DNA of 64,000 nt from a bacterium (GTDB lineage: Bacteria; Electryoneota; Electryoneia; Electryoneales; Electryoneaceae): the NCBI GenBank assembly GCA_020444265.1, contig JAHLLH010000004.1:124001-188000 (forward strand), given 5' to 3'. Made by a program: the position numbers and the translations under genes. A model generated the notes under the pieces. It made no database searches. It saw only the letters and a program-made list of their open reading frames with translations, and was not told the DNA's origin. Positions 42,165 to 60,494 of the stretch are shown piece by piece; position 1 is the stretch's first letter, and each line of letters opens with the position of its first letter.

Positions 42165-42460
42165 CTGATCCGCGGTTTCATTGATCGCGCCGATTGGCAA
42201 GATTTGGTTTTACACTGGACGATAGTCGAGGGAGTGGACTACGACAGTGCTCGCAGGTCACGCAAATCGGCAAGAGAGCCACGCTGAGGCCTCGCGTCCT
42301 CCATTCGCACGATTCCCAAGGCGAAAATGCAGGCGATTTCCCGCAAACGATTGTCCGGTATCCTCAGGTTCGGGTTCTGCTTCATCAAGTCCTCCTAGAC
42401 GTCTTACACATCCGTCTAAGAGATACATACCGGGAGGGTGTTGATGAAGACCCAGGTTGG
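42165..42460. repeat. Recombinase-associated-type repeat, copy 1
   Basis: Begins CTGATCCGCGGT and ends just after GTCTAAGAGATACATAC (about 42414-42430). Contains the conserved minus-strand small ORF. Its sequence runs parallel to 45253-45500 and, more weakly, 43221-43400. Confidence 0.6.
42239..42385 (-). CDS. Tiny ORF of the repeat family, copy 1
   Basis: 48 codons, MKQNPNLRIPDNRLREIACI followed by FALGIVRM, with AGGAGGACTTG before the ATG. The first 28 residues match the copy at 45246-45425; the tails differ. The reading frame and ribosome-binding site are preserved while the MTPEER segment is lost, so it is partly decayed. Confidence 0.4.
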   Translation of the reverse strand: MKQNPNLRIPDNRLREIACIFALGIVRMEDARPQRGSLADLRDLRALS

Positions 42461-42494
42461 AGGAATGCTTCCTTCAAACAGGGTCAATCTCCCT

Positions 42495-43220: not shown

Positions 43221-43400
43221 AGGATGTCTGCTTTCTCCATTCGCATGAATCCCGCACAGGTTCATCCGGTGTCATCCTGTTCGGTTTCTTCTATCAAATT
43301 ACTACTCAGGGATCTTATGCTCGGTCTAAGAGATGCATCACGTAGGGAGATTGATTTGACGAAGGTTTGGGCGGATTCCTACTATAAACCGGGGTCCTTC
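43221..43400. repeat. Recombinase-associated-type repeat, degenerate copy 3
   Basis: Shares CGGTCTAAGAGATGCATCA and the 'ATGACACCGGA' and 'CGAATGGAG' minus-strand blocks with the other copies. The small ORF's start is lost (ATA in place of ATG) and the frame is shifted. Confidence 0.5.
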
Positions 43401-44024: not shown

Positions 44025-44579
44025 ATGCAAATCGATCATCGTAAAACGGGCGGGAAGTACTGGTGGATTATCATGCCGGTGGTACTGCTCTTTTCAGCCT
44101 GTGCACCAAGCACTCGATTGATTGAGCCGGTAGATCGTTTTGAGGTGAACCGCTATACGGGCAGGTGGTATGAAATCGCCCGTTATCCCCACCGTTTCGA
44201 GAAAGATTTGTCGAGGGTGACTGCAACCTACACGTTGAATGAGGACGGTTCGCTGGATGTAGTAAACCGTGGCTACAATGAGGTGAGTAAAGAGTGGAAA
44301 TCCGCTCGGGGAAAAGCCTATTTCAAGGAGGAGCCCACCCTCGGTTTGCTGAAGGTCTCCTTTTTCTGGCCGTTCTATGGCGAATACAAGGTCATTCGAC
44401 TGGACCGGAAAGACTATTCCTATGCTGTGATCACAAGCAGCACGTTCAAGTATCTATGGATTTTATCCAGGGAGCCTCAGTTGTCGCAGGAGGTGTTGGA
44501 CGGGTTGCTGAAGGAGGTTGAAGAATTGGGGTTTGACCGTTCACGGATCATCATGGTCGACCAGTCATCCCCCGAATGA
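44025..44579 (+). CDS. blc: Lipocalin family lipoprotein (Blc type)
   Basis: 184 residues from the ATG after GGGGGG. Signal peptide with lipobox LLFSAC, then the lipocalin signature 'YTGRWYEIARYPHRFEKDL' and 'YGEYKVIRLDRKDYSYAVI' with 'YLWILSREP'. An outer-membrane lipocalin that would bind fatty acids or lysophospholipids in the envelope. The end 'VEELGFDRSRI' is also typical of Blc. Confidence 0.9.
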   Translation: MQIDHRKTGGKYWWIIMPVVLLFSACAPSTRLIEPVDRFEVNRYTGRWYEIARYPHRFEKDLSRVTATYTLNEDGSLDVVNRGYNEVSKEWKSARGKAYFKEEPTLGLLKVSFFWPFYGEYKVIRLDRKDYSYAVITSSTFKYLWILSREPQLSQEVLDGLLKEVEELGFDRSRIIMVDQSSPE

Positions 44580-44664: not shown

Positions 44665-45057
44665 CTACAATACCAGGGGTAGTGTATAACAGATAGCTAG
44701 CGACCCAAACCATGCCACCAGGATAATATGGAAGAGGGGCTTCCCTGCAGGAGGTTTGAAGTAGACTATCTGCCAGCCAGCTCGCCAGAACCAGAACAAG
44801 GCAAGAACCAGCAATACGCCCTGCGCCAAACCTTGAGCTTCAGCGAGTTCTGAAGAATATCGTAGAGAGAGATAGGCTAGCCCGATGAAAAGGGCATACA
44901 ACGCGATATGGATCGTGTAAAAAATTCTACTGTTCGGTTCTTTGACTTTCTGGAACGCCCGACGCCAAAGAAATAGTTTCGGGAAAGTAAGGTGAAAGAC
45001 GAACATCAGCAGGGTGAGAATCCCACCACAAATGACTGAAACGTGGTTCATTTCCAT
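44665..45057 (-). CDS. Four-helix membrane protein, unknown function
   Basis: 130 residues from the ATG giving MEMNHVSVICGG, with AAGGG upstream. Four hydrophobic helices, 'HLTFPKLFLWRRAF' between the first two, short loops. No family recognised with confidence. Convergent with the lipocalin gene; a GGGGTCAGACTC motif lies just beyond its stop. Confidence 0.62.
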   Translation of the reverse strand: MEMNHVSVICGGILTLLMFVFHLTFPKLFLWRRAFQKVKEPNSRIFYTIHIALYALFIGLAYLSLRYSSELAEAQGLAQGVLLVLALFWFWRAGWQIVYFKPPAGKPLFHIILVAWFGSLAICYTLPLVL

Positions 45058-45245
45058 TTCAAAGCCCTTTATCCAGATGATGGAAAAATCGCTGAAATAT
45101 ACGGACTCTATGTTCAAGCCAGATAAGACTCCCAAGCAAAAGGGGCTATTATCTCAACGAGATTATTTGTAAATGGGGTCTGTCCCAATTTTGCCCACTG
45201 CTCATCCGAGATCAAGTGTTCGTAATGACCATAGAGTTCTGGCCA

Positions 45246-45425
45246 CTAACCACTGATCCGCGGTGTAATTGATTTTGAAGGCTTGGAGAGGCTTGGTTCG
45301 GTAGGTTTGGAAGGGGAAGACAACAGGATGTTCGCGTACACCATTCGCACGATTTCCTGTGCGAAAATGCAGGCGATTTCCCGCAAACGTTCTTCCGGTG
45401 TCATCTTAGTCGGGTTTTTCTTCAT
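45246..45425 (-). CDS. Tiny ORF of the repeat family, copy 2 (MTPEERLREI type)
   Basis: 59 codons: MKKNPTKMTPEERLREIACI, FAQEIVRM, then a Ser/Pro/Lys-rich tail ending ITPRISG. Short proteins with an MTPEERLREV-like start are, as I recall, typical neighbours of serine-recombinase/DUF2924 mobile loci. No recombinase remains here. An AAGAGGACTCG site precedes the ATG. Confidence 0.5.
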   Translation of the reverse strand: MKKNPTKMTPEERLREIACIFAQEIVRMVYANILLSSPSKPTEPSLSKPSKSITPRISG

Positions 45426-45500
45426 CGAGTCCTCTTAGGCGTGGTACACATCCGTCTAAGAGATACATACCTGAAAGGGGTTTGATATGACGAATCTTGG
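45253..45500. repeat. Recombinase-associated-type repeat, copy 2
   Basis: Best-preserved copy: CTGATCCGCGGT at the left, GTCTAAGAGATACATAC near 45454-45470 at the right. It lies directly upstream of the NACHT-nuclease gene. Confidence 0.6.
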
Positions 45501-45657
45501 AGGAGGAAGAACTCTTACGTGTTGGACCCGTATGCAATCGTATTTTAATCTTCAGGTTGACTCTCAGTCCCTTGGGATTCGAGGTATGCACGAGGTTGGA
45601 TGTCGGATTTGTTTTTCGAGTGAAATGATCGTGAGGCGAGGCCACCATGTTTGTTGA
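45487..45657 (+). CDS. Possible leader ORF overlapping the NACHT gene start
   Basis: 56 codons (MTNLGGGRTLTCWTRMQSYF...), with AAAGGGG 6 nt before the ATG. It ends TGA inside the first codons of the next gene, an 11-nt overlap that could couple translation. No similarity recognised. Its first codons lie in the repeat, so it may be a chance frame. Confidence 0.28.
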   Translation: MTNLGGGRTLTCWTRMQSYFNLQVDSQSLGIRGMHEVGCRICFSSEMIVRRGHHVC

Positions 45658-48600
45658 TTTGAAGCGAAGATTTAGAAAATGGGACAAAGAAACGAGCGAT
45701 TTGTTGGCAATGATGGAGTTAATTCAGCTCGACGAGTCTGGTGAGTTTCAATATTCAAGGGGATGGGAGGAATTACTCGAGCGGAAATCGACAATTGTGT
45801 TAGGTGAGGCAGGAAGTGGCAAATCGGTTGAGTTCAAGAATCAGGTAGAGCGAATTAACAGTAATGGAAAATTTGCTTTCGGGATAGAAATTCACGACTT
45901 GTGCAAAAATCCATTATCTAATTGTGTTGATCAAGCACTCTTTAAGAAATGGCGTAGATCAAAGGAATCTGGTTATTTCTTTCTGGATTCACTCGATGAA
46001 GCCAAACTTCGCCAAAGCACTCTTAGACAAGCATTACTTTCTCTATCGAATGGCATCCAGGGATTTGAGTCAAGAATTCATATATTTATTTCAAGTCGAA
46101 CTAGTGATTGGGATAATCGAACAGACTTTGAAGAGTTCAGTGCAGCTATTAAGAAATTAGTTGATCTTAAAAGGGATAAAATATCAGAAGATGCTAATTT
46201 AAATGCGGATAACCACGAAAATATTATAGAATCATGCTTTGTGCTCCTACCTCTTGACGGTTCTCGTGTAGTGCAGCTTGCTAAAGCAATTGGTGTTGAG
46301 AATCCTTCAGGCTTTTTAGACGCAATTCGGCATGCAGGAGCAGAGCCACTCGTTGGGCGCCCGTTGGATGTTGAATGGATGGCAGAGCATTGGATTGAGG
46401 AAAACCTAATAGGTACTTGGACAGAGATTCTAGAAGGCAAGATTTCTGCCGCACTATTCGAGCGTCACCGCGAGCGTGAATCCAGACTTAGTGATACAGA
46501 CGCATATGGTTATGCAGAACGAATTGCAGGATTCATGTCATTGTCTAATGCAAGATATATCTCTGCACCGGGAAATTCGACCAGCGAAACTGGAATTCTG
46601 CCTATAGATGATCTCGCAGCCGATCTTGAATTGCACAAAAGGCATGAATTGGTTTCACGAGGAGTGTTTGATGTTCCGACCTTCGGACGTATCAAGTTTC
46701 ACCACGAGTTCATTCGCGAGTACTTGGCTTTCAAATGGTTGGCCCGTCCGGAGTTCTCACGACAAAAAGTGGCTCAGTTGTTCTTTTCATCGGGTGAGGC
46801 ACATCCAATCCCAATGCATCTTAAAGCCATAGCTGCTTGGTATTGTATTTATAGTCCTGACTTTCGAAGAACGGTAATCAGAAAAGAGCCAGAGTTGCTA
46901 TTTGATTTGGGGGATCCACAAGCGATTTCGGTAGAAGAGCGTATACAGATTCTCGAATCTCTTCGCAGAAAATACAAACACAGACTAGAGTTCGGCTTTT
47001 ACTACGACAGATCGCGTCTGGCAAGATTTTCTAATGGCTTACCTACCAAAGCTTTGGTGAGCTTGCTGGAAGACCAGGAGGCACCTGATGAATTTGTTAG
47101 AACAATTCTGGAGATTGCTCTCGCCGGTGAACACAAAGATCTAGCAAATCAGGCAACCCAGATTGCTCTGTCTTCTGAACGAGGCCCTTCTGTCCGAATT
47201 GAAGCAATCAACGTAGTATCAAAGCTTGGATCCTCTGAATTGCTTTCAGTTTTATCCGGCTTGAAAAACGATCTATCGCTTCAAGAGGAAATTGCCGCAT
47301 CTCTTATTGACTTTCTATTCCCTGGTATTCTCACCATCGGTGATGTTACAGCCGTTTTGAAGGGTATAGACAAGCGGCCCAGACATGTCCATACGCTGCT
47401 AGACTCAGTTATTACAAGGAGTATCCCAGAACATGCTAACTTAGAGCAACTTATTGAGATAATAATCGGTGTTGGGGACTTCGTGTTCAAGGAAGATGAA
47501 AGGGGTGATATTACAATCCAGCAAGGCCAAGGATGGCTGCTCAATGGTCTATATCTCTGGGTTACTAAAGTGGTTAATCAAACCAGTATTGAGGTATACA
47601 ACGATCAACTTCTAAATGTAATGCACCTTCTATTTCACCATATCTATTCCCACCTCCATTCAAATCTAGATTCAAGTGAGTTCTTAAAGGCAGTGGCTTC
47701 ACGATCTTCTGTAAAGCGCGTGGTTATTGATTATTTGTTGAAAATCCATCCCAACACCACTTGTAGAAACATTATAAATGATCATAATCTCTATAATGCT
47801 CTAAGTATGGAGGATTCTGAGTGGGTACTAAAGTATGCAGAGTATGCTGAATTGGATCGGGCGAGTGAGTCCGCCAAGGAATTAGTCTGGGATATATACT
47901 TAAATTCGAACAGGACGGCTAAGGCAAAGCGCTTTGTCAAACAATTCAACGATCTTATACCAGAGAAAGCAATTCGATATAAGAGAACGATTTTGGGGAT
48001 ACTCAAATACAAATTGCACTTTCATCGTCCGCGTTGGCCACGCTATAAACATAGACTACTGCATTGGAAGAACTTGTTTCTTGACACATTGCGATTGCTG
48101 GTTAACCTTAAACAAATTCAAGCAGGCAATCACCTACAAAATCTTCAATATCTGGCGCGTCTGATGCAAGAAGAGTCGCCTTCAAGCTATAGCGCGGTTA
48201 ATCCAGAGAGAGTTAGGAATAGGCATGGCAGACTGATTGAAGATGCAGCTGTTGAAGGGCTTAAACGTAGATGGCGAACATACAGCCCACCGTTACCATT
48301 TGAGAAAGAAGAAGGTCGAGGCACTACCTACGGCACAATAGTAGGGCTTGCGGGGTTGTCGCTTGAGATGCCAGACCAAGGTTTAGGTCGCCTCGACAAT
48401 CAGAGCACCACTGACTACTTGAACGAAGTTGTAGTAGGATGGGCTATTGACCCAAGATCTTTAAATAGAGAAGAGATCACGTTGATGACTCGATACGCCA
48501 TTCACGAGCTCAACCAGCCGCCGAAATGGTTTTCGGTTGTAGCTTATTATCACCCCATATGGGTGATAGCAGCACTTTCTGAGCAAATAGAATATGAATT

Positions 48601-49897
48601 CGATTATCCGCCGGGTGAAGAAGATCTTGAATGGGGAATGGCAGTCTTCAGGAAATTCCCTTATTTAGATGATTGGGTCAAGCGATCATTGGCCGCACCT
48701 TTCCAAGAACAATTCATTGCCAAACAACCACTACACACCGAAGTACTGAAGCGAGCGCTCGAAGTCTTAATGACCGACGAGTACTTGTTTTTCGTGCCTC
48801 TCGTCAACCTTGCTTCAGAAGAACTAGGCGATGAGAGACTTGAACCTGGACGCTTTGCGGTTTGGTGGATAGTCTTTGCACATAGTCAGCCTCAACGCGC
48901 TACAGAGGTTTTACGTACCCGATTGTCGACGCTTTCATCTACAAAAGCTGATCAACAGATGGTAATCCTACTTGATTTACTTCACGATTGGTTTGGTGAT
49001 CGACATAATTATCACTCAAGGTGGCTGTACAATGAGCTGATTCTAGCCTCTTTGATTCCACTGATTCATGCCCACCTTCGCTACGAGGAAGACCTGGAAC
49101 ATGAGGGAGGGTATAGCCCCTCAGCGCGTGACGAAGCTCAAACGATGCGTTCAATAATATTGGGGCGAGCTCGAAACATTGGTGGTGACAAAATTCGAGA
49201 AGCATTTGAATTGATCGCAAATAAAGAATCTAACCCAGAACGTGCTGAGTGGTTCCGAAACATGGGCGATGTGTCTGAGCTGAGAATTGAAAGGCTAAAA
49301 CCGATGACGATTCCTCAAGTATTTACTTGGGAATCAGAAAGTACTCTTTTGGTTGAGAACGAGCCAGATCTATTTAGATCAACCCTCCACGTTCTTGGAG
49401 AGATTAAAGCTTTTATTGAAAATGACGACTTCAGCATTCGAAATCTATTTGTCGAGAATAAAACCAAGAGTCCAGTGAAAGAAACTCAGGTACAGCTATG
49501 GCTTGCACATGAGCTCGAGGGTAGAAGTCGGGGCCAGTTCAGTGTAGAACGTGAACCCGAGGTAGACCTTGGGAAAAAACCGGACATTCGACTGTCTAAT
49601 CCCAAGAGCAAAGGCCCGATATCAATCGAGGTGAAAATTTCGAGCCAATGGAGTGGAAATGAGCTTAAAGAAAAGGCGTTGGAAGAACAGGTTACTACCA
49701 GCTACCTTAAGGCTTGGAATTCAAGGCACGGGATTCTACTTATTTGCAATATTGGGCCAAAAAAGGAATGGGAAATCGGGGGCAAGAAGCTGAATTTTCA
49801 ATGTTTGATAAATGAACTCCAAGAATACGCTAATCTGATCCTCAATAATAATCGTGAGATAGAAGATATTCGTGTTGTTGGGATTGACTTTAATTAG
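45647..49897 (+). CDS. NACHT-like STAND NTPase with C-terminal PD-(D/E)XK nuclease, putative anti-phage protein
   Basis: 1416 residues. N-terminal NTPase: Walker A 'GEAGSGKS' (53-60), Walker B 'FFLDSLDEA' (111-119) in the NACHT-style hhhDxxDE form, sensor-like 'IFISSRTSDW' (~146-155) and winged-helix-like 'IKFHHEFIREYLAFKWL' around 348. A ~900-residue mostly helical region follows, likely repeat-like and possibly the sensor. The C-terminal domain has 'KKPDIRL' (Asp1313), 'SIEVKI' (Glu1328, Lys1330) and 'EEQVTTSY' (Gln1348, Tyr1353), the pattern of a PD-(D/E)XK nuclease. Characterised bacterial NACHT/Avs proteins carry the effector N-terminally; here it is at the end. AT-rich compared with all neighbours, suggesting transfer. 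Likely a self-contained abortive-infection protein. Confidence 0.72.
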   Translation: MFVDLKRRFRKWDKETSDLLAMMELIQLDESGEFQYSRGWEELLERKSTIVLGEAGSGKSVEFKNQVERINSNGKFAFGIEIHDLCKNPLSNCVDQALFKKWRRSKESGYFFLDSLDEAKLRQSTLRQALLSLSNGIQGFESRIHIFISSRTSDWDNRTDFEEFSAAIKKLVDLKRDKISEDANLNADNHENIIESCFVLLPLDGSRVVQLAKAIGVENPSGFLDAIRHAGAEPLVGRPLDVEWMAEHWIEENLIGTWTEILEGKISAALFERHRERESRLSDTDAYGYAERIAGFMSLSNARYISAPGNSTSETGILPIDDLAADLELHKRHELVSRGVFDVPTFGRIKFHHEFIREYLAFKWLARPEFSRQKVAQLFFSSGEAHPIPMHLKAIAAWYCIYSPDFRRTVIRKEPELLFDLGDPQAISVEERIQILESLRRKYKHRLEFGFYYDRSRLARFSNGLPTKALVSLLEDQEAPDEFVRTILEIALAGEHKDLANQATQIALSSERGPSVRIEAINVVSKLGSSELLSVLSGLKNDLSLQEEIAASLIDFLFPGILTIGDVTAVLKGIDKRPRHVHTLLDSVITRSIPEHANLEQLIEIIIGVGDFVFKEDERGDITIQQGQGWLLNGLYLWVTKVVNQTSIEVYNDQLLNVMHLLFHHIYSHLHSNLDSSEFLKAVASRSSVKRVVIDYLLKIHPNTTCRNIINDHNLYNALSMEDSEWVLKYAEYAELDRASESAKELVWDIYLNSNRTAKAKRFVKQFNDLIPEKAIRYKRTILGILKYKLHFHRPRWPRYKHRLLHWKNLFLDTLRLLVNLKQIQAGNHLQNLQYLARLMQEESPSSYSAVNPERVRNRHGRLIEDAAVEGLKRRWRTYSPPLPFEKEEGRGTTYGTIVGLAGLSLEMPDQGLGRLDNQSTTDYLNEVVVGWAIDPRSLNREEITLMTRYAIHELNQPPKWFSVVAYYHPIWVIAALSEQIEYEFDYPPGEEDLEWGMAVFRKFPYLDDWVKRSLAAPFQEQFIAKQPLHTEVLKRALEVLMTDEYLFFVPLVNLASEELGDERLEPGRFAVWWIVFAHSQPQRATEVLRTRLSTLSSTKADQQMVILLDLLHDWFGDRHNYHSRWLYNELILASLIPLIHAHLRYEEDLEHEGGYSPSARDEAQTMRSIILGRARNIGGDKIREAFELIANKESNPERAEWFRNMGDVSELRIERLKPMTIPQVFTWESESTLLVENEPDLFRSTLHVLGEIKAFIENDDFSIRNLFVENKTKSPVKETQVQLWLAHELEGRSRGQFSVEREPEVDLGKKPDIRLSNPKSKGPISIEVKISSQWSGNELKEKALEEQVTTSYLKAWNSRHGILLICNIGPKKEWEIGGKKLNFQCLINELQEYANLILNNNREIEDIRVVGIDFN

Positions 49898-50270: not shown

Positions 50271-50322
50271 TGGTGAGCCGAGTGGGACTCGAACCCACGA
50301 CCTTGGGCTTAAAAGGCCCAAC
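50271..50322 (-). other. Attachment site: displaced 3' half of tRNA-Lys(UUU)
   Basis: On the minus strand this reads from the anticodon stem (TTGGGC, loop CTTTTAA, GCCCAA) through the variable loop, T arm (GTGGG TTCGAGT CCCAC) and acceptor TCGGCTCA to CCA. No 5' half precedes it: the expected GAGCCG...D-arm is absent. This is the direct-repeat footprint left when an integrative element inserts in a tRNA gene. The intact gene should lie beyond the right edge, next to the integrase at 63700. Confidence 0.78.
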
Positions 50323-50625: not shown

Positions 50626-50627
50626 CG

Positions 50628-50716
50628 CGGAGGGTATGGGATTCGAACCCATGAATGTGGTTTCCCACATCTCTCGATTTTCAGTCGAGCGCAATCGGCC
50701 ACTCTGCCAACCCTAT
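50628..50716 (-). tRNA. Serine-type (class II) tRNA with GAA (Phe) anticodon, possibly pseudo
   Basis: Minus strand. D arm GGCAGAGTGGCCGATTGCG, anticodon stem CTCGA/TCGAG with loop CTGAAAA, long variable arm ATGTGG-GAAA-CCACAT, T arm ATGGG TTCGAAT CCCAT. The long variable arm and D loop are those of tRNA-Ser, but positions 34-36 read GAA, the phenylalanine anticodon. The acceptor stem pairs at five of seven positions (ATAGGGT with ACCCTCC), and CGA stands where CCA would be encoded. Either a decayed tRNA-Ser(GGA) or a tRNA that would put serine at Phe codons. Confidence 0.6.
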
Positions 50717-52516: not shown

Positions 52517-53212
52517 CTACACATCCATCCCCGCACCGTTAACCCGCAACCAGTTTTTACGCTCACGGTAATCGGGGAGCACTTTGTCCACCTCGTTCCA
52601 GAACGCTTCTGTGTGGTTGGGATGGACGAGGTGCGCGAGTTCGTGGACGATGATGTAGTCGATGATGGTAGCGGGGGCCATCATGGTTTTCCAGTGGAAA
52701 TGGACGAGACCCGCCTCATTGCAGGATGCCCAGCGATGTTTGAGGTCCATCACCTTGAGGGCTTTCACCTCCACACCCATCCGCTCAGCGAAATATTCCA
52801 CCCGTTGGAAAATTCGAGCTTTGGCCTTCTCGCGGTAGAACTCCTTGAAAGCCTTGTCCGCATGGCCGTTGTGAACGTAGTCGCTGTGCAGGCAGAAGTA
52901 CCCGTCCTTCAGCAGCAAGGGCGCGTCCTGGTCATTCACGAGCTTCAAACGGTACGTCCGACCCATATACAGGAAGCCCTCACCATTCACATAGTCCCGG
53001 CGAATCTTGGTGGCGTTCAGGTCACGCCACTCGGCGAGGTTGCGGTATATCCAGGACCGCTTCTTCTCCAGCATCTCCTCGATGTCACCCGCACTCAGTT
53101 CTTCCGGCACCAGCACAGAGACCTGCCCATCCCGCTCGATGTAAATGCTCGCGGTTTTACGCTTGCTGCGTGTCAGCGTGTAGGCAATGTCCTTGTACTG
53201 CTGCTGCATCAT
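52517..53212 (-). CDS. YgjP/SprT-type metallopeptidase (M48-like, DUF45)
   Basis: 231 residues. Zinc site 'HELAHLVHPNHTEAFW' (HExxH plus a downstream His), preceded by 'WASCNEAGLVHFHWKTMMAP'. This is the YgjP-like family commonly encoded next to type I restriction genes; in other systems it is proposed to act on or with the R subunit. Its ATG overlaps the hsdR stop by 4 nt, so it is part of the hsd operon. Confidence 0.88.
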   Translation of the reverse strand: MMQQQYKDIAYTLTRSKRKTASIYIERDGQVSVLVPEELSAGDIEEMLEKKRSWIYRNLAEWRDLNATKIRRDYVNGEGFLYMGRTYRLKLVNDQDAPLLLKDGYFCLHSDYVHNGHADKAFKEFYREKAKARIFQRVEYFAERMGVEVKALKVMDLKHRWASCNEAGLVHFHWKTMMAPATIIDYIIVHELAHLVHPNHTEAFWNEVDKVLPDYRERKNWLRVNGAGMDV

Positions 53213-56200
53213 GAGAGAAGGTCCTTGTGCCGATGCTTCGCGAGGTTAGTGATCTCGGTGACCAACTTTGGCGTTTTGTCCGCGATGGCATCCACCTCTG
53301 AGCCGAGCAGGATTTCCGAGATGGATGCGCGCAACTGCCTAACCGCATCCGTGTTGTTCCAGAAGTTGATGATGTTGATCCGCTCGGCCAACAGGATCAC
53401 AACTTCCGCAGTGATCCTCTTCACTTCAGGATCGTCCTCGGGTGGCATCTGAGTGCCTTCGTAGGCTATCGAGGCGATGTTGGCATAGAAGGGCTGAGCC
53501 TTCCGTCCGAGGCCCTCTACGGCGTCCTTACGGCCTTCAGCGGCCTCCTGGCGGATGGAGAACAGCTCGGCGAAGAGCTTGTCCCAGTCGTCCTTGTACT
53601 TCTTGATGGCGTCCTCGAGCTTCTCGCTGATTTTCTTGTAGAACGCCGGGTCCTCATTAAAGTGCACCTTGGCGTGCTTACGGATGGCGTGCTCCATCTC
53701 GCTCGCTTTCGCTCTGGGGCTTTTGCTCGAGTGCTTGTCCAGCTCCTTGATGAACTTGTCCGACAGCAGCTCCACGGGTGGAATCTTCGGGTTGATCCCG
53801 AGGCTGATGAGGTGCTCGTCGATCAGCTTCTTCACCTTGCCACCCACGCCGGAGATGGTCAAGGTCTCGTCCTTGTACCGCTGACGGACGTGGGCCATAA
53901 TCACCCCGAAACGCTTGGCCGGAATCTTGTACGGGTTGCCGCTGGGGTTGGGCAGGACCACGTCCAGGCTGGTGAGGAACTTCTTCAGGTAGACCTCGAA
54001 GTTGGCCCGCTGCTTCAGGTCCTCCATCTTCGTCACAGCATCGTCGAGAATCAGGTATTCCTCGGCGGTGGTCATCTTTTTCTGTTCAACAAAGTCCTTG
54101 ATCCGGTCTACCTTCAGCTCGGTGAACAGGTTCAGCAGGCGCTGGTACCGGGTCTGAAGGATCGGGATTTCATCGGACACATCCCGCAGCCCTTTCTCCA
54201 CCTCATCGGCATCTTCCTGGGCATAGATCGAGAGGGCATCACTAAGGTGATTGGCGAGGCCGATGTAATCCACGATGAAGCCACGACTCTTTCCCTTCGC
54301 CACACGGTTCACGCGGGCGATGGTCTGGAGCAGGTTGTGATTCTTGACCTTCTTGTCGATGTACATGACCTGCTCAACAGGGGCATCAAAACCGGTCATC
54401 AGCATATCCACGACTACAAGGAACGCCACGCCTGTGAGTGGTTTCTTGTAGTCGAACCGAGCTTTGAAACTTTTTACTGCATCCATCTCCCTGGCACGCT
54501 TCCGCTCGATGGTGATCTCAGCCAGCTCGTTCGTACCCATACCCGAGATGACCACCACCACCTTCAGGAACTCGATCTTCGCAATAAGCTCATCATTGCG
54601 GTGGGCCTCGAAGTCCTCCTCGGTCATGTCTTGCGGGTCACCTTTCCAGACCGGTTTGGCGTACTCGTAGGCGAGACGTTCCTCGATGGCCGCCTCGATG
54701 AAACGCCTGTACTTGACCGCTGCCTTCTGCGAGGATGCCACCACCTGCGCCTTGAAGCCGTTGGGGAGGATTTCATCGATGTAGTGGTTCACCATGTCAC
54801 GGGCGATTTCTTCGATGCGTGCATCCGCTTCGAGCAGGTCTCCGGTGGTACCCCACTTCTGTTTCAGCTTCAGGATCTCGAGTTCGGTGTGTTCCTGGAT
54901 GAGGTCGTCGAGGGGTTTGTGTTCCTTCCCGGAAATCTTCCGCAGCTTCGCCAAGTTCGCAGCACGGCGCATCTGACTCTCGACAATCCTCCGGGCTTCA
55001 GCGTCCACCTTTGTGTCGAATTCGTGCTTCCGGTCTACCGCTGCATCGTGGGTCTTGCCCTCGTAGACGATGCGCACCGTGGCTCGGTCTGCGACAGCAT
55101 CCAGCAGCATGTACTTGTCGATGTATGTCCCAAAAGTCGAGACGGTCTTGTGTTCTCGCTGTTGACCATCTTTCACCTTGATGAGGGGGGTGCCGGTGAA
55201 GGCGAGACGGGTGGCATTTGGGAACGCTTCGACAAGGTTGTCACCGAGATCGCTGCCATGACTGCGGTGGGCCTCGTCGATCATCAGCAGGATACGGCTG
55301 CTCTCATTTACCACCCCGATCCGTTCGAAGCGGGGGATAGTGAGGGCCTCGTCCAGGTAGTCCGGAACATCGTCAAAACGCTCGCCCTGGAACTTGTGCA
55401 CCATCACCATGTTCAGGTTCGAGGCATCCGTGGCGAGCTTCTGCTTCATCATCTCGGACGACTCGATGGTGGTCACCTTCTCACCGGAGAGTTCCGCGGT
55501 CCGTGTGAGCTGGTCCTCGAGGTCGGTACGGTCACAGACAAGGCACACCTTGTAATCCTTCAGGTCCTCCAGCATCCGCAGCTTGCGGATCACAAAGACC
55601 ATCGTCAGGCTCTTGCCCGATCCCTGGGTATGCCAGATAACACCCGAGCGTTCTTCGGGGGTGGACCCCTCGCGCAGCCGTTCGATGATCTTGACCATTG
55701 CCCTGTACTGCTGATGCCGTGCGAGGACCTTCACACGCTTGTTGCCCGCATCCATGAAGACGGAACAGGTACGGATCAGGTCGAGCAGGGTCTCCTTCGG
55801 CAGCATCCCCTGAATCAGAACTTCCTGCGCGCGTTTCTTGCCGAGTGGTGGGTCGTACTCACGATACTGCTCGGGGAAGATGGAGCGCCACGGGTACCAG
55901 AACTCCTCGTCCGTCGCGGTGATGGTTCCGAATTCCGCTTCCTCGCCGATGGTGCGGATCAGGAGCTGGTTTGTCCAAAAGAGCTTGGGCTCGCCTTCAT
56001 GCAGTCCTGCCAGCCGGGTATCCTCGCGCTGGTCGGAGTACCGCATTAGTTGCTGAAACGCTTCATTCAGCGGGTTGGCTTCGGTCTTGCTGACACGTTT
56101 GCACTCAACCACCCCAATGGGCAGGCCGTTGACAAAGAGGACGATGTCCGGGATAATCATTTCCTTGACACGGCCCGGAGTATCGATGCGGAACTGGTTG

Positions 56201-56607
56201 ATAGCGTGGAAGGCGTTGGCTTCGGGGTGGTGGAAGTCGATCAGCTTGACACGAGGGTGTTCTTCACCGGTGACTTCATTCACATCGGCATGCGCCTGAA
56301 AGAGCAGCCCAAGGATCGATTCGTTCGCTTCGGCGAGGTTGCGAGGGGCGCGGTGGTAAACCTCATCAAGAAGTGCACCGAGCTGCTTGTCGGTCAGCCA
56401 CGGTTTCCCGTCCTCGGTCAGGTTGATGGCCCGGATCGCCTCGAAGAAGACACCCTTCAGCGCCACCTCACGAAAGCTGCTCCGCAGGCTTGCCGCAGGG
56501 TCTTCAGGGATGTCCGTCTTGCTGCCCACCGCCTGGTCGATTACCGCCCAGCCGAGGGCTTTGAGCTGGTCAAGGAAGGGCTTCTCTACGTGCGTGTATT
56601 CACTCAT
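53209..56607 (-). CDS. hsdR: Type I restriction enzyme R subunit (translocase/nuclease)
   Basis: 1132 residues, starting at [10 protein letters not shown]; this ATG overlaps the hsdS end by 8 nt. N-terminal nuclease: Asp154 in 'IPDIVLF', Glu168 and Lys170 in 'VVECKR', Gln/Tyr in 'FQQLMRYS'. SF2 translocase: Walker A 'TQGSGKS' (327-333), DEAH at 444-447 in 'LMIDEAHRSH', and motif VI-like 'QTIARVNRVAKGKSRG'. Coiled C-terminal region for M/S contact. All key residues are intact. Confidence 0.95.
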   Translation of the reverse strand: MSEYTHVEKPFLDQLKALGWAVIDQAVGSKTDIPEDPAASLRSSFREVALKGVFFEAIRAINLTEDGKPWLTDKQLGALLDEVYHRAPRNLAEANESILGLLFQAHADVNEVTGEEHPRVKLIDFHHPEANAFHAINQFRIDTPGRVKEMIIPDIVLFVNGLPIGVVECKRVSKTEANPLNEAFQQLMRYSDQREDTRLAGLHEGEPKLFWTNQLLIRTIGEEAEFGTITATDEEFWYPWRSIFPEQYREYDPPLGKKRAQEVLIQGMLPKETLLDLIRTCSVFMDAGNKRVKVLARHQQYRAMVKIIERLREGSTPEERSGVIWHTQGSGKSLTMVFVIRKLRMLEDLKDYKVCLVCDRTDLEDQLTRTAELSGEKVTTIESSEMMKQKLATDASNLNMVMVHKFQGERFDDVPDYLDEALTIPRFERIGVVNESSRILLMIDEAHRSHGSDLGDNLVEAFPNATRLAFTGTPLIKVKDGQQREHKTVSTFGTYIDKYMLLDAVADRATVRIVYEGKTHDAAVDRKHEFDTKVDAEARRIVESQMRRAANLAKLRKISGKEHKPLDDLIQEHTELEILKLKQKWGTTGDLLEADARIEEIARDMVNHYIDEILPNGFKAQVVASSQKAAVKYRRFIEAAIEERLAYEYAKPVWKGDPQDMTEEDFEAHRNDELIAKIEFLKVVVVISGMGTNELAEITIERKRAREMDAVKSFKARFDYKKPLTGVAFLVVVDMLMTGFDAPVEQVMYIDKKVKNHNLLQTIARVNRVAKGKSRGFIVDYIGLANHLSDALSIYAQEDADEVEKGLRDVSDEIPILQTRYQRLLNLFTELKVDRIKDFVEQKKMTTAEEYLILDDAVTKMEDLKQRANFEVYLKKFLTSLDVVLPNPSGNPYKIPAKRFGVIMAHVRQRYKDETLTISGVGGKVKKLIDEHLISLGINPKIPPVELLSDKFIKELDKHSSKSPRAKASEMEHAIRKHAKVHFNEDPAFYKKISEKLEDAIKKYKDDWDKLFAELFSIRQEAAEGRKDAVEGLGRKAQPFYANIASIAYEGTQMPPEDDPEVKRITAEVVILLAERINIINFWNNTDAVRQLRASISEILLGSEVDAIADKTPKLVTEITNLAKHRHKDLLS

Positions 56608-57895
56608 CGAGGGCATCCATAGCTTCGTCCACATTCACCCGGACCTTGCCGGTCAGGAGGTCTTGCATCAGGCCTGTTTTCAAGTGTTGGAGCTTCTCCA
56701 AGTCAGACCGATAGGTGTCAATGGTTCGATTCATAGTCTGGAATACATCAGCAACTCGTTCTTGTTCTTTTGCCGGGAAGACCGCCACAACGAGTTCTCG
56801 AATTTCTTCAAGGTGGAGGTTCGTCACAGTGCCTTGTTTTGAGCGTTTCCTAATCTGAGCCCACGTTTGATCTGACTGAAGGTAGTATGTCAGGAATCTG
56901 GTGTTGATCTTCGACACGATTGGGCGGATGAGTGCAAGACTGACGAAGATCGAAAACTCCCAGTCCCAATCAACAATTTTCAACAGCCCAATAGTACCAT
57001 TCTTAGAGAGAAGGATGTCCCCACGCATCGGATTACATCGAAGGGTGAGTATTCGGTGTTCTTCAGGGCTAATGTATTTCAGCTTGCTAAAATCAATACT
57101 GGTATCCTGTATATCTGTCACCCGTAAAAAAGGTACTCCGTGCTCTCGATATTCGGGCGTGAAGTGCGTTCCGTCGATGATCTTTTCTGTCAACTCCTCA
57201 AGTAACGATGTATCCCACTCTTTCGGGATCATTCCGAGTTCGGAGGGTTTGTATAGGTCGGGGGCTTGTTCGTAGGGGGGGCGAAGCTGACCATGTTCGT
57301 CCACGCCACGGGTGAAGAGGTCGTGCATCATCCCCTGCTTGATGGACTCCTGCTTCGCGATCAGCGCCTCCGTCCGCTCAATCAGGTTGTCCACCGTCGT
57401 CAGGATTTCCGCGATCTTCCGCTGCTGCCCTGGGGGGGGGGTTGGAATTAATAACCGCCGGACATCTTTCGTGTTGATAGCTGGGTAGTTCGAACCCACC
57501 ACATGGCCTTCAACCTGCTTGGCGATGTTGTCTGACAGAATTGAGTAAAGGATGAATCGATCATCCACACCCTGCTTGGCAGTCAACACAGCGAAACCGG
57601 TCGAGGCAACTGTAAGGTCATCGGAATGATCGAATTGGGCAAAAGCGCGAAGGTTAGGACGCACTGTTGACATTAATACATCGCCTCTTTTCAGCACTTT
57701 GCGTGCACGGGATGGGGCTTCACCATAGGGGATTTTATTGGATGGCAACCGCAACTTACCCTCAAAAGCAGAACTGATATCGATGTAGAAAAACTCCTGG
57801 GCAGAGGGTGTGATAACACTGAGTTGCTCTCGGTCAATTTCAGCAAGCTCATCTAATGGTTTCCATTTCCAATTTGTTGGTAAAGAGTCACTCAT
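56600..57895 (-). CDS. hsdS: Type I restriction enzyme specificity subunit
   Basis: 431 residues with two target-recognition domains separated by a conserved helical spacer ('[44 protein letters not shown]') and a second spacer at the end ('[28 protein letters not shown]'). The TRDs set the bipartite DNA target, not readable from sequence. Overlaps hsdM and hsdR by 8 nt each. Confidence 0.94.
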
Positions 57896-60494
57896 AGCCC
57901 AACTCCTTCAAAAACTGGTTGAGTCGGGCGGCTTCAGTGTCTCGGGCTGCGAGGATGTCATTGGCGGTGACAGCGTACTTGTCGTACAGGTTCTCGATGG
58001 CTGCGATCAGACTGCGCAGGAACTGCCGGAGGTAACCGTCATACTGTTCCGATAGCAGCTTGTGCAGCCGTTCGAGGATCAGGGTGCGGGCTTCGTCCTC
58101 GGTGATCTTCTTGCGGGCCTCGGTCACAAGTGCTTCGGTGCGTTTCTCCACTTGCCGGACATTGGCACGTTTCTCCTTCAGCTCCTTCTCCAGGTCGGTG
58201 TGGGTTTTCAGCTTGGTAGTGATCTCGTCCAGGTCAGTCTCGCACTCATTTCGCCGTTTTGCGAGCTTGTCTATCCGCTGCTTCTTCTCCTCTACCTCCT
58301 GCCGATCAAAGAGCGAATTTTCCATCCGTTGGAGATCCTGCTTCGCGATCTTAGAGTCCTTCGTGAGCTGAGTGATCTCACCCTTCAGGGCTTTCTGCTG
58401 GTCTTTCAGCTCCTTGACCGTTGCCTTGGGTAGGACATCCCCATCAGGGTCGTCGCTATCCTCGCTATCCTCCTCTTCGGAGGTGTCCGCAGCAGCGAAG
58501 AGGGCGGTCAGTTCGGCTATCCGTGCCCGGTCTGCTTCCAGCTCCTCCAACACCTGCGGGAACTGGGACGCGAGGATGTCATCCTCCGGGATCAGCTCTG
58601 CACTCCATCCGCTGGCAGCGATGGACTTGAAGTCCGATTCCAGCTCTTTCATGTAGCTCGCGAAGGCACCCCGTACCTGGTGCAAGGTCAGGATGCCCTG
58701 CGGGGTCAGCACCTCCTCGATGTCGTCGAGAAACTTCCTGCGCAGGTCGAAGAGGGCCTGGTCACCCGCCCCTGCGAGGGCTTCGATCTTTGGAAGATTT
58801 GCTGACCACCAGTCATTCAGGGCGTTGTGGAAGGCTTCATGCTTGGCCTGGACACCCTCCGCCGATTCAATCAGAGGCTTGATAGCTTTCTTGTTCTCTA
58901 TGGCATCAGAGAAGTTCCGGTAGGCTTCCTCACGAGGGGCGAAGAGAAGTTCACGGACGCCGGGATAGACGCTCCAGGCATCCTTCAGGCTATCGATCTC
59001 GGCGAGGGGTACGCCACCATGCAGGTGAGCACGCACATCATGCGGTTCCGGCGGAGGGCTGTTGTCCACATAACGCCGGATGTTGAGGTTCCAGTCTTCC
59101 GCTTCCAACTCGCTGACGGGGACGTTCCGTGAGTACTTGGGTTCGTCCAGCTTCTTCCGGTAGACATGGGTGATTTTTTCCAAGTCCTCCGGGCGCAAGC
59201 TGTTCTGGTTTTTGCCTTCCCTGTACTCCCGGTCTGCGTTGATGAAGAGGATGCTGTCCCGTTCCCTTGCACCCTGCTTATTGAAGACGAGGATGCTGGC
59301 AGGAATGCCGGTACCATAGAAGAGGGAAGGTGGAAGGCCGATCACCGCCTCGAGGTAGCCGTCCTCGATGAACCGTTTGCGGGCTTTGCGTTCGTCACCC
59401 CCACGGAAGAGGACCCCGTGCGGCATGACCACGGCCATCCTGCCTTCTTCCTTCAGGGACGCCACCATGTGCTGCACGAACATCAGGTCCGCCTTTTTGC
59501 CGCTGGTAGGCATCCAGGTGTGGAACCGTTCCGTGAACTTCATGTTCGTCTTGCTGTAGTTCTGACTAAAGGGCGGATTTGCAATCACCCGGTCAAAGCG
59601 CTGCCACTCACCCCGTTGGTCCGTGTGTTCCGGCTCGAGAAGGGTATCCCCCTGCTTGATGCTGGCGGACTGAATGCCATGCAGCAGCATATTCATCTTG
59701 CAGATGGACCATGTGGTTCCGTTCAGCTCCTGCCCTGCGAGGAAGAGGTCAGTGGTATCCCCACCGGACTCCTCCACGTACTGCTTCGATTGGATCAGCA
59801 TACCACCGGACCCGGCGCAGGGGTCGTAAATCGACATGCCCTGATGCGGTTCGATGAGCTGGACCATCAGCCGGACAACAAATGCAGGCGTGTAGAATTC
59901 CCCACCCTTCTTGCCCGCGCTGTCTGCGAAGTACTTGATGAGGTATTCGTAGGCTGCACCGAGGAGGTCAGGGAACTCGAAGTCCTCGTTCGAGAGGGGG
60001 ATGTCATCGAAGTGCTGAATGAATTCCACCAGCCGGTCATCGCTGACCACCTTCTGACCGACCTTGCGGTTGTAGTTGATGTGCTTGAGAACGTCCTCGA
60101 GGGTGTCCGGGTTGGCATCCTCGATGGCCCCCAGCGCCTTATTCAGCCCTGAGCCCACCTCTTCCTTCAGATGCTTGATTCTGGACCAGTGCCCCTCCTC
60201 GGGGATGACAAAGGAGTAAATGTCCGGGTTGTTGTCGAGTTGCTTCTGAATGCGATCATCCGGCCAACCGAGGCGCTCGTATTCCTTGCGTTTCTGAGCA
60301 CGCTCCAGGTCGTATTGGTCGGAGAGACGTTTCAGGAAGAGGACGCCAAAAATGAAGTCCTTGTATTCGGAGGCGTCCATATTGCCGCGCAGAATATCGC
60401 AGGCGGTGAAAAGCTTGCTCGCCAACCGGGGGAGGGTCAGTTTTCCATCTGTGTTGCTGTTCCCATTGCCGTTCCCGTTCCCATTCCTCGCCAC
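57888..60494 (-). CDS. hsdM: Type I restriction enzyme M subunit (N6-adenine methyltransferase), long form
   Basis: 868 residues from a GTG 6 nt after AGGAGG. N-terminal HsdM_N domain, '[13 protein letters not shown]', SAM motif '[11 protein letters not shown]' (223-233) and catalytic 'NPPF' (306-309). About 350 residues beyond the usual end are helical, with an acidic patch '[12 protein letters not shown]' and a long coiled coil. The first residues are an (Asn-Gly)n run encoded by near-repeated GGGAAC hexamers at 60453-60485. First gene of the operon hsdM-S-R-peptidase. Confidence 0.94.

Follow-up and report, generated by a model that had tools for sequence, protein, structure and literature searches.

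Can a protein of the NACHT type carry its nuclease at the end where a sensor is expected, and if it does, is it a new kind of defence system? This question was raised by a long open reading frame (ORF) in a 64,000-nucleotide stretch of an Electryoneota genome (family Electryoneaceae; GenBank assembly GCA_020444265.1, contig JAHLLH010000004.1, positions 124,001 to 188,000), called here the window. The ORF (45647-49897, + strand) was unbroken, began with ATG and encoded 1416 amino acids, and two residues just after the start, R7 and F9, were invariant in an alignment of 12 proteins. A first-pass annotation, made from the sequence alone, had described a Walker A/B pair, a helical middle and a PD...ExK...QxxxxY tail in this ORF, and had proposed a new single-gene defence protein with an inverted layout. 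The coordinates, the motifs and the length all held up, as did the order of NTPase, helical region and nuclease, but this order proved to be a property of a whole family that is already catalogued.

The protein matched the NCBIfam model NF058534 (antiphage_HyoA) over its full length, from residue 5 to 1415 on model positions 1-1427 of 1430 (778.6 bits, E 1.3e-233), while the EruA model NF058535 gave 129 bits with partial coverage (residues 43-881). In a maximum-likelihood tree, a HyoA clade of 21 rows (100/100) contained the window protein and all proteins above the HyoA cut-off, and the EruA-like proteins formed the other clade with full support. The window protein grouped with two relatives (L065 and L012; 91/87) on a side branch beside the above-cut-off HyoA proteins (100/98); its end branch was long (1.84), so its exact place within the HyoA clade is uncertain. 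Five relatives passed the HyoA cut-off with 1392-1739 bits (L046, L047, L049, L060 and L125) and kept all the motifs. Judged by its sequence, the window protein is related to HyoA but divergent, on a deep side branch inside the HyoA clade. The suggestion of a new defence protein was therefore given up in favour of a full-length HyoA relative, whose family stands in NCBIfam as anti-phage. We also noted that one genome (G378, contigs C13 and C42) held two EruA-like copies with 837 and 778 bits, both under the EruA cut-off of 1000.

To judge the conservation of the catalytic motifs, we used an alignment of 71 rows, made up of the window protein and 70 full-length homologues that were ~20-26% identical to it. 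K59, D114, D117, E118, R151, E1279 and D1313 were each present in all 71 rows. The first five of these lie in the NACHT module (residues ~1-500, 45647-47146), which is predicted to have nucleotide-binding, helical and winged-helix parts. The Walker A motif GEAGSGKS (residues 53-60, 45803-45826) held the invariant K59 next to an equally invariant G58, and the Walker B motif FFLDSLDE (residues 111-118, 45977-46000) held D114, D117 and E118. R151 (46097-46099), the arginine after the next strand, occupies a sensor-1-like position and may act accordingly. Such invariance means that the motifs did not arise by chance.

The structure was predicted in two halves, residues 1-700 and 701-1416, and together these gave a NACHT fold, a helical region and a nuclease-type tail. 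The N-terminal AlphaFold2 model had a mean predicted local distance difference test (pLDDT) score of 86.7. Its best match by Z in a fold search was NLRC4, with Z 16.3 over 364 residues, and it also matched NOD2 (E 8.3e-8), NAIP/NLRC4, NLRP3 and Avs4 (8dgf). Residue 1 of the model aligned to residue 129 of NLRC4, which indicates that no effector domain stands ahead of the NACHT module. Pfam gave only sub-threshold NACHT/STAND signals for the window protein (NACHT 13.8 bits against a cut-off of 26.7). With Walker A, a NACHT-type Walker B and the modelled fold of nucleotide-binding, helical and winged-helix domains all present, the predicted N-terminus is a NACHT/STAND NTPase, as the first-pass annotation had it, and the protein is a bacterial relative of the NOD/NLR immune sensors of humans.

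The C-terminal AlphaFold model (residues 701-1416, pLDDT 82.5) was helical to about residue 1275 and then, by DSSP, ran through a helix, three strands, a helix, strands, a helix and a strand. This last part (residues 1276-1416, 49472-49894, + strand) carried the tail motifs. D1313 of the PD motif (residues 1312-1313; D1313 codon 49583-49585; D613 in the model) stood directly before strand 2, E1328 and K1330 of the ExK motif E1328-V-K1330 (49628-49636; E628 and K630) lay within strand 3, and Q1348 and Y1353 of the Q-x4-Y motif (49688-49705; Q648 and Y653) were in the helix that follows strand 3. E1328, K1330, Q1348 and Y1353 were conserved in 70 of the 71 rows, with one gap, and E1303 was also found in 70 of 71. 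In the model, this placement of the motifs is the standard PD-(D/E)XK arrangement on an alpha-beta-beta-beta-alpha-beta core.

We then set a profile of 54 C-terminal domains against those of known PD-(D/E)XK families. The tail profile matched NucS at P 0.0011, and its E, D and ExK positions were in register. The same method returned an equal value for Mrr against NucS (P 0.0011), two families whose place in the superfamily is accepted, and the P values of reversed and unrelated controls ranged from 0.069 to 0.42. NucS was the only family that matched the tail; Mrr and NOV_C did not. When the C-terminal domain was searched against Pfam and PDB sequences, nothing meaningful came back, and PADLOC run on the 54 C-terminal domains gave scattered single weak matches only. 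As no named nuclease family was matched at the sequence level, the tail forms a separate family inside the PD-(D/E)XK superfamily. Its catalytic positions are invariant across ~70 deeply diverged proteins, which points to strong purifying selection on the nuclease. Thus the proposed C-terminal PD-(D/E)XK nuclease is backed by predicted topology, invariant motifs and the NucS profile.

The region between the two catalytic ends (residues ~501-1275, 47147-49471) was all-helical in the models and matched importin/armadillo-type folds with Z 8-11, in keeping with a HEAT/ARM-like architecture. Mean pairwise identity reached its lowest value, 0.27, in residues 441-900, compared with 0.36-0.42 for the NACHT part and 0.40 for the nuclease. 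Two conserved catalytic ends with a fast-diverging middle are the pattern expected of a protein with its sensor in the middle, and we infer that the helical region is the sensor. The earlier assignment of this region as the sensor is thus borne out in that it is helical and least conserved, while sensing itself stays putative.

The tail motifs were found in both clades of the tree, and the EruA-like L255 was among the proteins that carry them. The nuclease-last order is therefore how two named anti-phage families, HyoA and EruA, are regularly laid out, and the inverted layout is not new with the window protein.

Relatives of the protein were widespread. At least 268 were found across GTDB species representatives in many phyla, and by record titles the best 80 of the 268 came from Pseudomonadota, Desulfobacterota-type deltaproteobacteria, Chlorobi, Nitrospirota, Verrucomicrobia, Cyanobacteria, Planctomycetota, Acidobacteria, Omnitrophica, Bacteroidota and others. 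They occurred on chromosomes and on plasmids, with tblastn matches in 58 plasmid records, the best of them 22-30% identical. Among 41 related genomes, four had any match, the source genome included, and only the match in the source genome was full length, the others being weak or partial. This patchiness marks a mobile accessory gene and not a core gene. Some relatives were damaged. In many of the Burkholderia glumae plasmid matches (H16-H32), the relative appeared to be split by an ISNCY-family transposase, which suggests gene loss by insertion in one lineage. Broken reading frames were seen in three of the 73 relatives examined (L089, L101 and L109), and in view of these the gene may at times be lost.

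The window protein probably belongs, as a divergent member, to the HyoA group of NLR-like anti-phage proteins, which act from a single gene, and would work by sensing, oligomerisation and DNA cleavage. An anti-phage role, which the first-pass annotation had also put forward, is likely on the full-length homology to antiphage_HyoA. The domain order, the invariant active-site residues, the HyoA homology, the patchy distribution on chromosomes and plasmids and, at the level of prediction, the folds were shown here; sensing by the middle region, oligomerisation, DNA as the substrate and an abortive outcome with cell death, in which the tail is the toxin as the first-pass annotation proposed, are inferred. 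At rest, the NACHT ATPase would hold ADP in a folded-back state. Recognition of a phage product, or of a change that the phage causes in the host, would fall to the fast-diverging helical middle, and exchange of ADP for ATP would then lead to oligomerisation through the NACHT module. The oligomer would bring the C-terminal PD-(D/E)XK domains together, and DNA of the phage, the host or both would be cut, which would halt the infection and probably sacrifice the cell.

Several results weigh against this assignment. The score of 778.6 bits did not reach the curated equivalog cut-off of NF058534, which is 1200, and the tested activity of HyoA can therefore not simply be transferred to the window protein. 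PADLOC, run on the whole protein, matched no model, those for Avs included. The fold search with residues 701-1416 listed HEAT/ARM-type proteins only and no nuclease; as helical repeats fill that list, the search neither supports nor weakens the nuclease call. A scan of neighbouring genes counted 210 PADLOC families in 107 neighbour proteins versus 114 in 107 controls, a count of families and not of proteins that was not used as evidence.

The gene stands alone, as a single-gene system would. On its 5' side, the end of a lipocalin gene is at 44579, and between that gene and the HyoA-like one the opposite strand carries a short membrane-like ORF (44665-45135). The first feature on the 3' side is a fragment of the 3' end of a tRNA-Lys (50271-50315). 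The gene had been noted as AT-rich, and its GC content was indeed 43.2%, compared with 52.7% on its left side and 54.3% in the element on its right. A direct repeat of 173 nucleotides was also seen in this region. Its copies at 42292-42464 and 45332-45504 are 80% identical, a shorter one lies at 43250-43292, and the right copy stops ~140 bp 5' of the gene.

The tRNA fragment belongs to an integrative element. The 45-nucleotide copy of the tRNA-Lys(TTT) 3' end at 50271-50315 (- strand), found by a pattern search of the source genome, is the far attachment (att) site; the same sequence recurred with two mismatches at C1:188881-188925, and the whole genome held no further copy within three mismatches. 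ARAGORN placed the intact tRNA-Lys(TTT) at C1:188883-188956, 0.9 kb past the window end, with a tyrosine integrase beside it. The element runs from 50271 to C1:188956 (14.6 kb). Its cargo included an AAA/zinc-ribbon protein, a YgjP-like metallopeptidase, a HARE-HTH protein, a DUF4145 protein and a type I restriction-modification operon, hsdM-hsdS-hsdR (53209-60494, - strand), which was identified by Pfam (N6_Mtase, HsdM_N, Methylase_S, HSDR_N and SWI2_SNF2) and PADLOC (REase_I and Specificity_I).

The HyoA-like gene lies outside this element, ~374 bp away. We rejected it as cargo, because the far att copy separates the gene from the element and there is no third copy. The tRNA integration site reported near the gene is thus real, being a tRNA-Lys beyond the window, but the gene is not part of what was integrated there. 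A tRNA-Phe at 50627-50716 was likewise rejected as the integration target, the target being the tRNA-Lys. This tRNA-Phe(GAA), called by ARAGORN inside the element on the - strand, is odd in itself: it is 90 nucleotides long, with a serine-like body and a long variable arm, and was the weakest of 44 tRNA matches in the genome (44.1 bits), and a normal tRNA-Phe(GAA) is found at C9:159621-159693. Were it charged with serine, Phe codons would be misread. The HyoA-like gene itself seems to have been acquired separately, at a place where defence genes have collected. Some of the plasmid relatives were near SIR2, HEPN, helicase or type III restriction genes.

The adjoining type I restriction system bears on how the tail might work. 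Instead of being toxic to the host, the tail could be a selective restriction-type enzyme that NACHT oligomerisation loads onto the DNA of the phage and that cuts foreign or modified DNA only, without death of the cell, and a PD-(D/E)XK core with a QxxxxY-type motif does resemble DNA-repair and restriction nucleases of the NucS kind. However, Pfam found no DNA-recognition or modification-reader domain in the window protein, and characterised NACHT-nucleases behave otherwise: the N-terminal PD-(D/E)XK domain of bNACHT25 degrades plasmid DNA, a proxy for host DNA, once phage has activated the protein (PMC12169576). We regard such selective cutting as unlikely. Carriage on many plasmids (the 58 records) makes competition between plasmids plausible, and the main targets might then be plasmids or other mobile DNA in place of phages. 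Yet the NCBIfam family is named as anti-phage and plasmid carriage fits any defence gene, and we give this proposal very little credence.

The remaining alternative is a STAND regulator outside defence, for example a transcriptional or developmental one, in which the tail would be a degraded and inactive nuclease fold. STAND proteins do include regulators, and the annotation of one homologue names a transcriptional-activator domain, but the invariance of every catalytic position across ~70 deeply diverged proteins and the patchy, mobile distribution speak against such a regulator, which is extremely improbable.

The window protein resembles HyoA in its end-to-end alignment, domain order and invariant ATPase and nuclease residues, but differs in that it is only ~25% identical to the above-cut-off relatives, scores 778.6 versus 1200 bits and sits on a deep side branch. 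With EruA it shares the NACHT module and the helical region, and the EruA-like L255 has a comparable tail (DIL...EIK...Q-x4-Y); the EruA match, however, was partial at 129 bits and the clade is separate. The family was thus already known and catalogued as anti-phage, and what is new here is a divergent member of it and not a new kind of system. The tail follows NucS_C (PF01939) and other PD-(D/E)XK nucleases in the order E, D, ExK and Q..Y, with a weak in-register profile match, but nothing of weight was matched in Pfam, PADLOC or the PDB sequences.

Avs (AVAST) STAND NTPases likewise join a STAND/NACHT-type ATPase to a long helical-repeat sensor, and Avs4 (8dgf) was among the structural matches. 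Avs proteins have their effector at the N-terminus, whereas the window protein starts directly with its NACHT module and places the nuclease at residues 1276-1416. The clade 6 proteins bNACHT25 and bNACHT32 also combine a NACHT ATPase with a PD-(D/E)XK DNase in anti-phage defence, with the nuclease N-terminal and the sensor C-terminal, the reverse of the window protein (PMC12169576). It has been stated that all STAND NTPases, bacterial NACHT proteins among them, run effector-NACHT-sensor (PMC12169576), and the DefensePredictor paper also gives this order as general (PMC13092281). That a family with at least 268 members, spread over many phyla, has its effector at the opposite end means that the rule is not general. 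Possibly, although we hold this only tentatively, NLR-like proteins with the effector at the sensor end, such as the window protein and HyoA/EruA, have an undescribed activation geometry, in which movement of the helical sensor arms, and not hub stacking as in inflammasomes and Avs tetramers, would bring the nucleases into pairs, and the trigger of the window protein may differ from that of HyoA. Set beside the effector-first systems, the family offers material for asking how a tail nuclease stays silent and is then switched on.

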